A stretch of DNA of 64,000 bases. It comes from an uncultured Bacillota bacterium (GTDB taxonomy: Bacteria; Bacillota_I; Bacilli_A; RFN20; CAG-826). The position numbers and the translations under genes are program-made. Where the stretch lies: positions 1-64,000 of the forward strand of contig CASEFL010000003.1 in assembly GCA_949287245.1 (NCBI GenBank). The letters are read 5' to 3'. Of this stretch, positions 30,785 through 36,412 are shown piece by piece. The notes beneath the pieces were generated by a model. It saw only the letters and a list, made by a program, of their open reading frames with translations, made no database searches and was not told the DNA's origin. Positions within the stretch are counted from its first letter, which is position 1. Each line of letters begins with the position of its first letter.

Positions 30785-31474
30785 TCACTCTTTATTCTTT
30801 AATAGAGTTTTTATTGCTAAAAATGCCATGATTAAACCAGCAGAGGAGGGTACCATCATGTAAGAACCAAGAACATTCCCACTTTCTTTTTGAATTTTTT
30901 CTTTGCTATAGATAGCAAGATAGTTGCTTAAATTTAACCCTCGCTCTCGAGCAAGTTTACGAATTCTTTTGCCTAATGGATCGCCTCCTGTTTGTTCTAA
31001 AGAGGAATAACTTACTAAAGAAGGGTCGAATCTTCTTGCCATACCTAAAGAAAGAATAAGAGGGATTTGATGGGAAGCAGAATATTCCATTAAATGAATT
31101 TTTCCTTCTACATCATCAATAGCGTCTAGCATTACATCAAAAGGTACATCAGAAGAAAAATCGCTACTAATTCTTAAAAAATGAGGAACAACAAGGACAT
31201 CTTTACGTATGCACTGTGCTCTTTTAAGAGCTACATCAACCTTTCTCTTTCCAAGGTCTTCTTTTGTAAACAAAATTTGACGATTCAAATTCGATTCATC
31301 AACAACATCATAATCATAAAGATGAATTTCCTTCACTCCCAAACGAAGTAAAGCTTCAAAAGCAGTACCCCCAACTCCTCCAATACCAAAAAGAGCAATT
31401 TTTGCTTTTTGAATGCGTTGAAGTGCTTCTTCTCCAAGCAAAGCGATGCTGCGATCATCAATAGAACAACTCAT
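30785..31474 (-). CDS. tcdA: tRNA threonylcarbamoyladenosine dehydratase (ThiF/E1-like)
   Basis: The 229-residue E1-like protein has GIGGVGGTAFEALLRLGVKE (ATP-binding GxGxxG), LYDYDVVDESNLNRQILF and DAIDDVEGKIHLMEYSAS, the order seen in TcdA/CsdL, which cyclises t6A37 to ct6A in ANN-decoding tRNAs. It is encoded next to two other tRNA position-37 enzymes (MiaA, MiaB), which supports that role over MoeB or ThiF. It overlaps miaA by 4 bp. Confidence 0.86.
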   Translation of the reverse strand: MSCSIDDRSIALLGEEALQRIQKAKIALFGIGGVGGTAFEALLRLGVKEIHLYDYDVVDESNLNRQILFTKEDLGKRKVDVALKRAQCIRKDVLVVPHFLRISSDFSSDVPFDVMLDAIDDVEGKIHLMEYSASHQIPLILSLGMARRFDPSLVSYSSLEQTGGDPLGKRIRKLARERGLNLSNYLAIYSKEKIQKESGNVLGSYMMVPSSAGLIMAFLAIKTLLKNKE

Positions 31475-32322
31475 AAAAATATCTCCTCAACATTATCAAA
31501 TTGATGACGGAAAAAAGTAAGTTGCCTCTTTGCATAATGCCTTGTATCAAGAAGTACTTGATGAAAAGCATCTTCTTTGGATATTTTTCCTTCATACCAA
31601 GGAATTACTTCCTTTACGCCAATAGCCTTAAATGCTGGACAACTTGTCCCAAACTTATCGAATATAGGAAATATTTGTTCTTCTATCTGTTTTCCAGAAA
31701 AAAGATTCGATAGTCTTTCTTCAATCCGTTGATATAAAACATTTCTGTCTCTGTTGATTAAAATAAATTTAACATCTTTATAAAATAATGAGGGGCCGTT
31801 TTTTGGTAGTTGTTCCGTTTTGGTTCTTCCACTTGATAAATAAATACTTAGTGCACGTAATACCCGTACACGATTATGAGGATGAATTTTTTTGGCTTCT
31901 ATGGGATCTAATTTTTCGAGTTCGTAATGAAGTTCATCATCAGAAAAATTCAAATATGGCTGCAAATCAGGAATATTTTTTTCTTTTTTTAATGAATAAT
32001 CATATAAAGCAGCGCGAATATATAGTCCACTTCCCCCAACAAGAATCGGAGTTTTCTTTCTTGATAAAATATCTTCAATACATTCTCTAGCATGCTTTTG
32101 GTACTGAAAAATATCATAACTTTCATTCACATTTAAAAATGAATAAAGATGGTGTGGTACAAGCTTTTTTTCTTCTATGCTTGGTGCACATGACATTAAT
32201 TCAATCTCTTTATATACCTGTAAAGCATCCGCGTTAATAATTTCGCCATGAAGAGAACGAGCAAGATCAAGAGCATATTGGCTTTTTCCTGAGGCAGTTG
32301 GTCCCATGATGGCGTAAATCAT
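31471..32322 (-). CDS. miaA: tRNA dimethylallyltransferase
   Basis: This 283-residue enzyme adds the isopentenyl group to A37 of tRNAs reading UNN codons. IMGPTASGKSQYALDLA is the P-loop with the catalytic Thr/Ser; NADALQVYKEIELMSCAP, VGGSGLYIRAALYDY and PHNRVRVLRALSIY are family segments. It is 1 bp downstream of miaB, whose product methylthiolates the same base, so the two steps are encoded together. Confidence 0.95.
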   Translation of the reverse strand: MIYAIMGPTASGKSQYALDLARSLHGEIINADALQVYKEIELMSCAPSIEEKKLVPHHLYSFLNVNESYDIFQYQKHARECIEDILSRKKTPILVGGSGLYIRAALYDYSLKKEKNIPDLQPYLNFSDDELHYELEKLDPIEAKKIHPHNRVRVLRALSIYLSSGRTKTEQLPKNGPSLFYKDVKFILINRDRNVLYQRIEERLSNLFSGKQIEEQIFPIFDKFGTSCPAFKAIGVKEVIPWYEGKISKEDAFHQVLLDTRHYAKRQLTFFRHQFDNVEEIFL

Positions 32323-32323
32323 T

Positions 32324-34057
32324 TTATTCTCCTAAAAAGTCCGCAATGACACGTAATTCCTCTTTTACTTCTTCCCCTAAAATATCTAAATTTTGTAAAA
32401 GAGGAGAATTCTCTAAATTTTTCTTTAACGCAAGATATTCATTTTTAATTTGACGGATATCTTGATGACGATTTGAAAGGTCAATCATCTCCTTTTTTAA
32501 CTGAGGAAGTTTTATCTTTAAGGCGTCAAGTTCCCCGCTTTCCTTTGCTTTTTTTACTAAAGAATGATATTCAGAAAACAAAGGGTCTTTTGATAAAAGA
32601 TAGGCGATATCCTTTGCCTTATAAATAAGAGGATCATCTACTAACTCGCCTTGTAAACTATAGACGTGTGACTCTTTTACAAGAACATCCACAAGACACC
32701 CTTTTAAATATTTCGGCCCTTTAAAATGAATTAGTTTTCCGTTTGTCGCATATCCAGAAAGCATTTCCTCATTTCTTTTTGAAGGACCTAAAACTAGTAC
32801 TTCAAAAGTTTTGCCAACCATGGAAGAAGAATGGTTTGCCGTACATTCATCAATCACTTCTTTTAAACGATTAAAGCGATCATGCGCAACAGAGGAAGGA
32901 ATTTGCTCTTTTTTTGCCGCTGGGGTACCTGGTCTTGGAGAATAAATAAAAGTAAAGGCACTACTAAATCCTACTTCTTTGCATAACGACAAAGTCTCTT
33001 CAAAATCTTCTTCCGTCTCGCCAGGAAAAGCCACAATGATGTCGGTAGTTATCGCAATATCAGGAATTTTCTTTTTTAATTGCTGAACAAGAGATAAATA
33101 TTCTTCTCTTGTATATCTTCTCCCCATCGCTTTTAAAACATGATTGCTTCCACTTTGCACAGGAAAATGTAACCAAGGGATGATATTTTTATATTTTGCC
33201 ATGACATCAATCATGCGCCCTGTAAATTGACTTGGATAAGAGGTAATAAATCGCAAACGAGGAATGCCTAATTTTGCTACTTCTTCAAGCAAAATCGGGA
33301 AGGCGTCCTCTTCTCCTAAATCAAGTCCATAAGAATTAACATTTTGTCCTAATAAAGTAATTTCTTTGTATCCTTCCTCAACAAGTTTTTTGCATTCTGC
33401 TAAAACATCGCCTTTTCTTCGGGAACGTTCTCTCCCCCTTGTATAAGGAACAATACAGTAGGTGCAAAATTTATCGCATCCATAGGAAATGTTTACAAAG
33501 GCACTATCTGAATCTAAGCGCAATGAGGGAAGAGATTCAATGACTTCCCCTGACATAGAACGAATACGAATTAAGGATTTCTTCTCTTGGAAATATGTCG
33601 ATAAATGCTCAAGTAAATGAGGAACTTCGTGTGTGCCAATAAAAAGACGCACCCAAGGATAGGTTGCCTGTAATTTTTCCGCTAACCCCTCTTCCTCCAT
33701 CGCACATCCAGCAAGAATTAAAATAAAAGAATGGCTTTCGTCCCAATTTGCTTTAAAAGAACCAATTTCACCATAAATTTTATCTACGGCATTTTCTCTT
33801 ACTGCGCAGGTATTAATAATGGCTAAATTAGAAAGATGGGGATTATCTACTTTTTCCATCCCGGCATTTTTTAAAAATCCCGCCATAATTTCTTCATCAC
33901 GAATATTGGCTTGGCAACCAAAGGTTCGAATATAAAATTTTTTATGCTCTAGTTCTTTTTTTACAATTGAAGGAACTTCTCCACCCCATTCTTTCCGAAT
34001 GGGGGCAATCTTTTTTGCGCCTTCTTTAAAATTTGCACGAAAATTTTCTTCCTTCAT
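32324..34057 (-). CDS. miaB: tRNA methylthiotransferase MiaB with C-terminal YmcA/RicA-like domain
   Basis: Numbering here counts from TTG 34075; the chosen start is ATG 34057 (GAGGAG upstream), giving 577 residues. The N-terminal UPF0004 domain carries cluster cysteines C54, C90 and C124; the radical-SAM motif is C200, C204, C207 (YGCDKFCTYC); a TRAM domain follows at about 415-478. Normal MiaB ends there. Here another 100 residues (DDPLIYKAKDIAYLLSKD, later NEYLALKKNLENSPLLQN) form a helical domain with the pattern of the YlbF/YmcA (Com_YlbF) family. In Bacillus ymcA is the separate gene next to miaB, so this is a gene fusion. YmcA is part of the RNase Y specificity complex, and rny is two genes upstream. 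Confidence 0.9.
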   Translation of the reverse strand: MKEENFRANFKEGAKKIAPIRKEWGGEVPSIVKKELEHKKFYIRTFGCQANIRDEEIMAGFLKNAGMEKVDNPHLSNLAIINTCAVRENAVDKIYGEIGSFKANWDESHSFILILAGCAMEEEGLAEKLQATYPWVRLFIGTHEVPHLLEHLSTYFQEKKSLIRIRSMSGEVIESLPSLRLDSDSAFVNISYGCDKFCTYCIVPYTRGRERSRRKGDVLAECKKLVEEGYKEITLLGQNVNSYGLDLGEEDAFPILLEEVAKLGIPRLRFITSYPSQFTGRMIDVMAKYKNIIPWLHFPVQSGSNHVLKAMGRRYTREEYLSLVQQLKKKIPDIAITTDIIVAFPGETEEDFEETLSLCKEVGFSSAFTFIYSPRPGTPAAKKEQIPSSVAHDRFNRLKEVIDECTANHSSSMVGKTFEVLVLGPSKRNEEMLSGYATNGKLIHFKGPKYLKGCLVDVLVKESHVYSLQGELVDDPLIYKAKDIAYLLSKDPLFSEYHSLVKKAKESGELDALKIKLPQLKKEMIDLSNRHQDIRQIKNEYLALKKNLENSPLLQNLDILGEEVKEELRVIADFLGE

Positions 34058-34058
34058 C

Positions 34059-34844
34059 CTAGTTCTCCTCAACACGTTTGTTTACACCACATATGGCAGT
34101 AGGCAAGTGGGTGTCATCATCAATATCAACATAACACCCTTGCAATACAAGATGTCCGCTTTCTCCTGTTTGAAAAGGGATTCTTTTCCCAAACCGCAAT
34201 TTATCTAAGGTTATTTGTGGGTCAAAGCCAATTATGCCAGGAAAATCTCCACATAACCCTAAATCCGTAATGTAGGCAACCTTTCCCTCAATAATTTGAG
34301 CATCATCTGTTTTCACATGTGTATGCGTGCCTACAACAATTGTTGCATGTTCCCTTACTAAATAGGCAAAACATTTCTTTTCACTACTCGATTCTGCATG
34401 ATAATCAACAATATGAATTGCATTAGGATATTCCTGAAAGGCTTCATCAAAAGCCTGCACCGGATCAAGAACATCTTCATTCATAAAGGCAGTGCCTAAT
34501 AAATTTGTTACAGCAAGAGAAAAGCCATCTCCTTCAAAATATATCGTGCCTTCTCCTTGCTCATAATCAAAAAGATTTCGTGGACGAATTAAGGAAGATA
34601 CATCATCAATCCATGTATCAATATCAGGTTTCCCATGGTAATGATTTCCTAAAGTTATTGCATCTACCCCGGTATTTAAGATTCTATGATAATCACGTTC
34701 GAATAAACCAGAACCAAAAGAAGCATTTTCTCCGTTTACTAAAACAAAATCTGGTTTAAGGCTTGCTTTTAAAGAAGGAAGGCCAAGTTCTAAGGCACGA
34801 AGACCAGCCTCTCCGACAACGTCTCCGAGTAAGAGAATCCGCAT
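34059..34844 (-). CDS. ymdB: YmdB family metallophosphoesterase
   Basis: The 261-residue protein shows metal-binding motifs LLGDVVGEAG, VLVNGENASFGSGL, TLGNHYHGKPDID, DYHAESSSEKKCFAYL and VVGTHTHVKTDDAQI. YmdB of Bacillus is a 2',3'-cyclic nucleotide phosphodiesterase that influences RNA turnover and biofilm choice and is encoded with RNase Y. Here it lies 2 bp after rny and 1 bp before the miaB start. Confidence 0.92.
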   Translation of the reverse strand: MRILLLGDVVGEAGLRALELGLPSLKASLKPDFVLVNGENASFGSGLFERDYHRILNTGVDAITLGNHYHGKPDIDTWIDDVSSLIRPRNLFDYEQGEGTIYFEGDGFSLAVTNLLGTAFMNEDVLDPVQAFDEAFQEYPNAIHIVDYHAESSSEKKCFAYLVREHATIVVGTHTHVKTDDAQIIEGKVAYITDLGLCGDFPGIIGFDPQITLDKLRFGKRIPFQTGESGHLVLQGCYVDIDDDTHLPTAICGVNKRVEEN

Positions 34845-34846
34845 GG

Positions 34847-36412
34847 TTATTTTGCCGTTTCAACCGCGCGATACTCACGAATAACAGAAACTTTAACCGT
34901 TCCAGGATATTTCACGTCGGCTTGAATTTTATCTTTAATTTGTTGTGCCAATAAAGTCGCTTGGGCATCAGAAACTTTTTCAGGAATGACCATAACACGC
35001 ACTTCTCTTCCAGCAGAGACAGCAAAAGCTTGAGAAACTCCCTCAAAAGATTTTGCCGATTCCTCTAATTGCGCAACCCGCTGTACATAAGTATCAAGTG
35101 ACTCGTTACGTACACCAGGACGTGCAGCCGATAAAGTATCAGCGGCAACAACTAAATGAGAGATAACATATTTCTTTTCCACATCGCCGTGATGGGCCTC
35201 AATTGCATTGACGACAACGTCCGGCTCATTATTTCTTCTTGCCAAATCTGCACCTAACTGGACATGTGATCCCTCAATTTCTACCGAAATAGCCTTACCA
35301 ATGTCATGGAGAAGTCCTGCTCTTTTGGCTAAATTTTGGTCAAGTCCTAATTCCGCAGCCATCGCCCCTGTTAAACGGGCCACTTCAATAGAATGTTCTA
35401 AAACATTTTGTCCATACGAAGTGCGGTATTTGAGCTTCCCTAAATAACTTAAAATTTCTTTTGGAAGACGAGGTAAACCTAACCGGCGTACAGCTTCTTC
35501 GCCTGCTTTATAAGTTTCCTCATTCACTTCTTTTTCATATTTTGCTGCTAATTCTTCAATCCTTGATGGTTGAATACGACCATCTTTAACAAGAGCAAGC
35601 AAGGTACGCCTTGCAATTTCTCGACGAATCGGATTAAAGCAAGAAACGGAAATAATTTCTGGAGTATCGTCTACTTCTAAATCAACCCCTAAAGTATTTT
35701 CAATAACTTTAATATTTCTTCCTTCACGGCCAATAATTCTTCCTTTTAGATCATCCGATGGTAAAGGTATGGCTGCCGTAGTGTGTTCAACAGTGAATTC
35801 TTGTGCGTATCGCTCTGCCGCATCCGCTAAAAGTTGTTTTGCTTTTGTTTCGGCAAATTCTTCTGCCTCATCTTCCCGATTTTTAATATAAGCAGAAATT
35901 TCAATCGCCATTTTTTCCTCTACCCGTCTCATAATCTCATCACGAGCATCTTTTACGGATAAACCAGAAACTTTCTCAAGTTCCGTAATAATGGCGCTAA
36001 TCTTTTCTTGTAAATCAGCCGCTTTTTCTTCGTAAGCATCGATTTTTTCTTCTAAAACTTCTTTTCGCTGATCAATTGCTCTTTCGCGATTATCAAGTTG
36101 AGATTCTCGACGAGTAAGTTCTTGTTCTCTTGCCGTAACTTGTGCGCGAATCTCTGTCGCTTTTACTCGAGCATCAGCAAGCATTTTCTCAGCATTTTGT
36201 TTTGTCTCAAGCATTGCTTCTTTTGCATCAAGACGCGACTTTGCAATTAATGCTTGTCCTTGACGTTCCGCGTCTTTTAAAAGTTGTTCTGCCTCTTTTC
36301 CTGTTGCTTTTTTCCGAAAACTTGGAATAGCAAAAAGCACACCACCAACAAGCGCTCCTCCAAGTAAAAAAGTAACCAAACAAACAACGACACAAATCCA
36401 TGAATCAATCAT
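34847..36412 (-). CDS. rny: Ribonuclease Y
   Basis: This 521-residue endoribonuclease starts mRNA decay at the membrane. It has an N-terminal membrane helix (residues about 5-30), a long coiled coil (about 40-205), a KH domain (GRIIGREGRNIKVIENTLG) and an HD domain with AGLLHDIGKAI. AGGAG precedes the ATG. About 270 bases separate it from recA, so it probably has its own promoter heading rny-ymdB-miaB-miaA-tcdA. Confidence 0.96.
   Translation of the reverse strand: MIDSWICVVVCLVTFLLGGALVGGVLFAIPSFRKKATGKEAEQLLKDAERQGQALIAKSRLDAKEAMLETKQNAEKMLADARVKATEIRAQVTAREQELTRRESQLDNRERAIDQRKEVLEEKIDAYEEKAADLQEKISAIITELEKVSGLSVKDARDEIMRRVEEKMAIEISAYIKNREDEAEEFAETKAKQLLADAAERYAQEFTVEHTTAAIPLPSDDLKGRIIGREGRNIKVIENTLGVDLEVDDTPEIISVSCFNPIRREIARRTLLALVKDGRIQPSRIEELAAKYEKEVNEETYKAGEEAVRRLGLPRLPKEILSYLGKLKYRTSYGQNVLEHSIEVARLTGAMAAELGLDQNLAKRAGLLHDIGKAISVEIEGSHVQLGADLARRNNEPDVVVNAIEAHHGDVEKKYVISHLVVAADTLSAARPGVRNESLDTYVQRVAQLEESAKSFEGVSQAFAVSAGREVRVMVIPEKVSDAQATLLAQQIKDKIQADVKYPGTVKVSVIREYRAVETAK

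Follow-up and report, generated by a model that had tools for sequence, protein, structure and literature searches.

The miaB gene in the window, the 64,000-nucleotide stretch of DNA that was analysed, was found to be fused in frame to its neighbour ricA. With a probability of about 0.72, the fused gene encodes a working RicA on an intact MiaB; judged from sequence, its tail would pair with RicF and then deliver RicT to RNase Y. MiaB, an enzyme that chemically modifies transfer RNA, and the neighbouring RicA, which assists the RNA-cutting enzyme RNase Y, have merged repeatedly among a group of uncultured gut bacteria. No publication on a MiaB-RicA fusion was found in the literature searched and, as far as that literature shows, this is an unreported, repeatedly evolved architecture.

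The fused gene occupies 32324..34057 on the reverse strand. Its frame opens with an ATG at 34057, which is preceded by GAGGAG and lies 1 base after the ymdB stop, and it closes with a stop codon at 32326-32324, giving a protein of 577 aa (583 aa if counted from an in-frame GTG). Three MiaB domains were recognised on the same strand. The UPF0004 domain (33635..33940; PF00919, 8.5e-23) carries the auxiliary-cluster cysteines C48, C84 and C118 (ATG numbering), the radical SAM domain (32984..33496; PF04055, 3.1e-30) carries C194, C198 and C201, and the TRAM domain (32639..32824; PF01938, 3.5e-8) has its last strand ending at residue 472 in the structure model. The MiaB part matched TIGR01574 end to end (E 1.4e-141, 472.5 bits, cut-off 355.3), and both the CX3CX2C radical SAM motif and the three auxiliary-cluster cysteines were invariant among 16 aligned MiaB sequences. 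The MiaB part is complete, and on these sequence features it should still methylthiolate i6A37 in tRNA. Both the TIGR01574 match and the MiaB part end at residue 479 in the 583-aa numbering, which confirmed the proposal of the initial annotation that residues from about 480 to 583 are additional to a normal MiaB.

The additional portion (32327..32641, reverse strand; residues 473-577, about 105 residues) was predicted with a pLDDT of 90 to form a domain of five helices, at residues 476-490, 492-506, 508-529, 535-549 and 552-576. Modelling of the whole protein placed the last TRAM strand at residues 467-472 and the beginning of the first extra helix at 476, leaving a linker of only 3 residues. 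The best PDB fold matches of the predicted domain were the YmcA/RicA structures 2PIH, 6PRK_B and 6PRH; the Z scores of the RicA structures were 11.2, 11.2 and 10.9 compared to 8.6 for the next match, although such values can be common among helical bundles. By fold RicA came first with RicF close behind, and 2OEQ, 2IAZ and 2OEE were lower.

Sequence profiles pointed the same way. A profile built from the fused tails only, with no Bacillus sequence, retrieved B. subtilis RicA as the top PDB entries (6PRH/6PRK and 2PIH, at 1.4e-7 and 2.4e-7) and reached RicF only at 0.095. Conversely, a profile made from the family's separate RicA proteins matched the window tail at 2.2e-12, where the best of the shuffled tails gave 0.05. 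Membership of Com_YlbF (PF06133), as first suggested, held for the fused tails of ten relatives, which passed the Pfam cut-off, but not for the window tail taken alone, which scored 19.5 bits (E 0.0014) against a cut-off of 23.9; at E<=0.1, 18 of the 19 fused tails matched. On profiles and predicted fold together, the tail is a RicA/YmcA domain, as the initial annotation had it. The other Com_YlbF proteins (RicF, YheA, SP1372 2IAZ and DUF964 2OEQ) share the helical fold and scored below RicA in the profile comparison. An assignment of the tail to RicF was rejected, since the fused-tail profile favours RicA and a separate RicF is present elsewhere in the genome. The fused protein therefore combines the same two families in the same order as B. 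subtilis MiaB and RicA (2PIH, 6PRH, 6PRK), with the MiaB cysteines and the five-helix RicA fold conserved. In B. subtilis the two are encoded by adjacent separate genes, whereas here they form one polypeptide.

To place the fusion in context, the 3' end of miaB was read in 107 of the 116 genomes surveyed in the family. It was fused in 19, followed by a separate ORF in 78 and without anything ricA-like behind it in 10, so that both fused and split forms exist among relatives. A recognisable ricA was found in 76 of the 78, the other two ORFs (G113 and G085) being too divergent for the RicA profile. These two genomes (L174, L175, L268) have a diverged ORF of about 127 aa at the place of ricA, which is possibly a very diverged RicA. 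The fusion was present in all 15 sampled genomes of the window's own genus, one of which is a single 1.1 Mb contig; an assembly error was rejected on these grounds, and the fusion is real. All eight genomes of genus g18 were also fused, as were two of the seven genomes read in g26 and one of three in g8. Named records with the fusion include JAKSVB010000001.1, JAFUHI010000009.1, JALEUF010000060.1 and CASGAD010000014.1. The other families sampled in the order and class yielded no fusion; the candidates G228, G249, G300, G256, G172, G292 and G197 were rejected as split genes or plain MiaB.

When only the MiaB part was used to build the tree, the fused/split label changed at least four times, with three of these changes forced by well-supported branches. 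Constraining all fused sequences to a single origin cost 340 log units (p-AU 1.7e-65), and a single origin was therefore rejected on the MiaB phylogeny. The junction sequences of the g26 and g8 fusions also differ from that of the window lineage. From these comparisons, the fusion probably arose four times, and at least three.

The split relatives suggest how the genes were joined. As the initial annotation had supposed for neighbouring genes, ricA lies directly behind miaB as a gene of its own in these genomes, and the two overlap in different frames (e.g. G-ATG-AAT-GA), the ricA start falling just inside the end of miaB. In 62 of 88 unfused genomes this overlap, counted from the ricA start to the end of the miaB stop, is 8 nt. 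The split relative G004 reads GTTGATGAATGATCCT, giving V-D-E-stop in the MiaB frame and M-N-D-P in the RicA frame, whereas the window junction reads GTAGATGATCCT and gives V-D-D-P in a single frame. Four bases make up the difference, and the former ATG is still found at unchanged spacing, now out of frame. This ATG (32635..32637, reverse strand) sits where ricA begins in split relatives, 7 nt past the Gly-Glu codons, and is probably the relic of a former ricA start codon. The junction comparisons are thus consistent with a small indel, here equivalent to a 4-nt loss (GATGAATGATCC to GATGATCC), that would have removed the miaB stop and joined both frames; the fusions elsewhere in the family likewise appear to be small indels joining two overlapping reading frames. 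Production of a separate RicA from an internal start of the window gene was rejected, as the first 20 codons after the junction contain no in-frame ATG, GTG or TTG and no Shine-Dalgarno-like site was found at the junction. Some fused relatives (e.g. L007 and L008) do have an in-frame ATG at this position, from which RicA could be produced as a separate protein.

The remainder of the Ric system was found in the window genome. The fused gene is its only RicA, with a family-profile match of E 8.9e-33 (the window tail is itself among the profile rows). A search with the RicA profile found no second, separate ricA; a separate ymcA elsewhere in the genome would have spoken against the initial interpretation. 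The other Com_YlbF gene is RicF, recognised by its ylbF-rsmD-coaD synteny, and a single RicT (NF041131, 5.9e-58) with the motif CX4CCX30CX4CC was present; RicF and RicT thus accompany the fused RicA in the same genome. As in the RicAFT/Y-complex that acts with RNase Y (PMC6751060, PMC10470536), there is an RNase Y, a RicF at ylbF-rsmD-coaD, a six-Cys RicT and one RicA, the difference being that RicA is here a domain of MiaB. The PSP1 domain of RicT scored 55-61 bits in the window's subgroup (G000, G047, G096 and G111) compared to mostly 80-115 elsewhere in the family; RicT is thus diverging in that subgroup.

The distribution of RicF across the family bears on the function of the fused domain. 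Of the ten genomes with no ricA next to miaB, nine lacked any kind of Com_YlbF match; the tenth, G106, gave a single weak match to Pfam and nothing with the profiles of the family. RicA and RicF were jointly missing from G008, G039, G061, G078 and G091 (g9), G052 and G072 (g35), G009 and G001; the two go together, in about four separate lineages. MiaB was kept in all ten genomes, and RicT in all except G078, which is 66% complete. RicF was, by contrast, kept in 18 of the 19 fused genomes, which makes it most likely that the fused domain continues to act as RicA. In G102, whose genome is 92% complete, RicF was not found alongside the fused MiaB-RicA, by gap or loss. The substitution data agree with a functioning RicA domain: divergence relative to MiaB on the log-identity scale was 2.56 for the fused domain and 3.33 for separate RicA, and two close pairs gave dN/dS values of 0.064 and 0.155 for the tail. 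That the RicA-like extension has decayed or been put to another use, such as only stabilising MiaB or aiding tRNA binding, might be suspected from the Pfam score of the window tail, from the fused tails being 27-43% identical where MiaB is 60-70% identical and from the missing cluster-2 cysteines described below. It is improbable, however, given a relative rate no higher than that of separate RicA, the full five-helix fold, and the retention of RicF in fused genomes when it is lost where RicA is lost.

A working RicA domain leaves two views of what being joined does. The fusion may be neutral: overlapping, translationally coupled genes would merge easily by an indel, the tail would stay RicA and its attachment would add nothing. 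This is compatible with the working RicA favoured above, differing from it only on the effect of being joined, and its chances are put at a little under even. It accords with the 8-nt overlap that is the rule in the family, with at least three fusions of differing junction sequence, and with a divergence rate of the tail that, at about 2.6 times that of MiaB on the log-identity scale, resembles the rate of separate RicA. MiaB is also kept where RicA is lost, which indicates that the two functions are separable. Less easily accommodated are the persistence of the fusion through the whole deep g1+g18 clade, with no reversal in 23 sampled genomes, and the lack of any observed read-through fusion into miaA, even though the fused gene commonly overlaps miaA by 4 nt. 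The RicT tails that go with the fusion, described below, also count against neutrality. Of itself, the joining means that RicA is made one-to-one with MiaB and that the RicA-RicF-RicT intermediate would be tethered to it.

The cluster ligands of the Ric proteins were then compared to those of B. subtilis, in which cluster 1 is held by RicT alone and cluster 2 by RicT C167, RicF C134 and C146, and RicA C141 (PMC6751060). The window RicA domain contains no cysteine and ends with helix 5, lacking the C-terminal tail and ligand C141 of B. subtilis RicA. Separately encoded RicA proteins in the family measure 71-108 aa, compared to roughly 140 for Bacillaceae. A cysteine among the final 12 residues occurs in only three of the family's proteins, inside the helix. 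As the separate proteins also lack the ligand, its loss from RicA predates the fusion. Of 55 longer, Bacillus-type RicA, 47 have a C-terminal cysteine, which is absent from many others, e.g. that of Staphylococcus. The RicF proteins of the family mostly have one C-terminal cysteine and at most one or two (L001:1480-1851, L219-L238); that of the window genome has none, as in several other genomes of the family. The six-cysteine motif of RicT was intact in all 51 sequences checked, the window genome included. With the cluster-2 cysteines of RicA and RicF missing, the canonical cluster 2 of B. subtilis cannot form, which calls for a different mechanism or may mean that RicT delivery is altered. 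The iron-sulfur link put forward in the initial annotation was not upheld, since only the six cysteines of RicT remain; without cysteines in its RicA domain, the fusion brings no cluster to MiaB through RicA itself. Nor need it tie MiaB to the nuclease, because RicA and RicF of B. subtilis hand RicT to RNase Y and neither remains on that enzyme, to which RicA does not bind stably (PMC10470536).

Regulatory coupling between tRNA methylthiolation and RNase Y is possible. A Ric complex held by MiaB could let methylthiolation, or the Fe-S state of MiaB, regulate RNase Y specificity, or RicT could help to rebuild the sacrificial cluster of MiaB. The recurrence of the fusion, the adjacency of miaB and ricA, which is conserved across Bacilli and was noted in PMC6751060, the short linker that puts RicA directly behind the TRAM domain and the conserved RicT cysteines are in favour of such coupling. 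It is nonetheless unlikely, as RicA and RicF are lost together while MiaB and RicT are not, and RicA has no cluster ligand here.

RicT itself differs in many of the fused genomes. Past the six-cysteine motif it extends for 65-94 residues in 56 split genomes and for 120-226 residues in 14 of the 19 fused ones. The added part is long, disordered and rich in N, Q, R, K, H and G (RicT loci L269-L331 and L002), a basic tail not seen in the RicAFT/Y-complex. It was found in none of the 56 split genomes and in two of eight without RicA, both from g35. Within g26 it was present in both fused genomes and absent from the five unfused ones. The fused genomes without it were that of the window (94 residues), G068, G083, G104 and G060. 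Among independent pairs, two agreed with an association between RicT tail and fusion, none went against it and one was a tie, and three pairs are too few for significance. It is rather doubtful that MiaB-RicA is a selected coupling device in which the Ric complex is assembled on MiaB and RNase Y specificity follows from tRNA modification or from the cluster status of MiaB, with a disordered, possibly RNA-binding RicT tail that co-evolved in the fused lineages and lets RicT do without the old cluster 2.

The neighbouring genes were as described initially, with rny and ymdB immediately upstream. On the reverse strand, rny (34847..36412; TIGR03319, 2.3e-179; PF12072) encodes the only RNase Y of the genome, 521 aa long, in a run with ymdB (34059..34844; TIGR00282 metallophosphoesterase), an inherited neighbour, and the fused gene. 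Downstream lies miaA (31471..32322, reverse strand; 283 aa; TIGR00174, 2.5e-73), whose product supplies MiaB with its i6A37 substrate. The presence of rny and ymdB here is inherited and uninformative on the fusion, because G009, a relative that has lost RicA, has the same rny-ymdB-miaB run. A candidate fusion of the G009 MiaB to its upstream gene (open frame 1343) was rejected, the gene being an ordinary 475-aa ORF.

With the fusion repeated and RicF kept, the reason for the adjacency of miaB and ricA in many Bacilli becomes testable in one protein. The fusion is also a hint that RicA can function, or at any rate survive, in the absence of its cluster-2 cysteine, a point relevant to the claim that delivery of RicT to RNase Y requires both RicAFT clusters.
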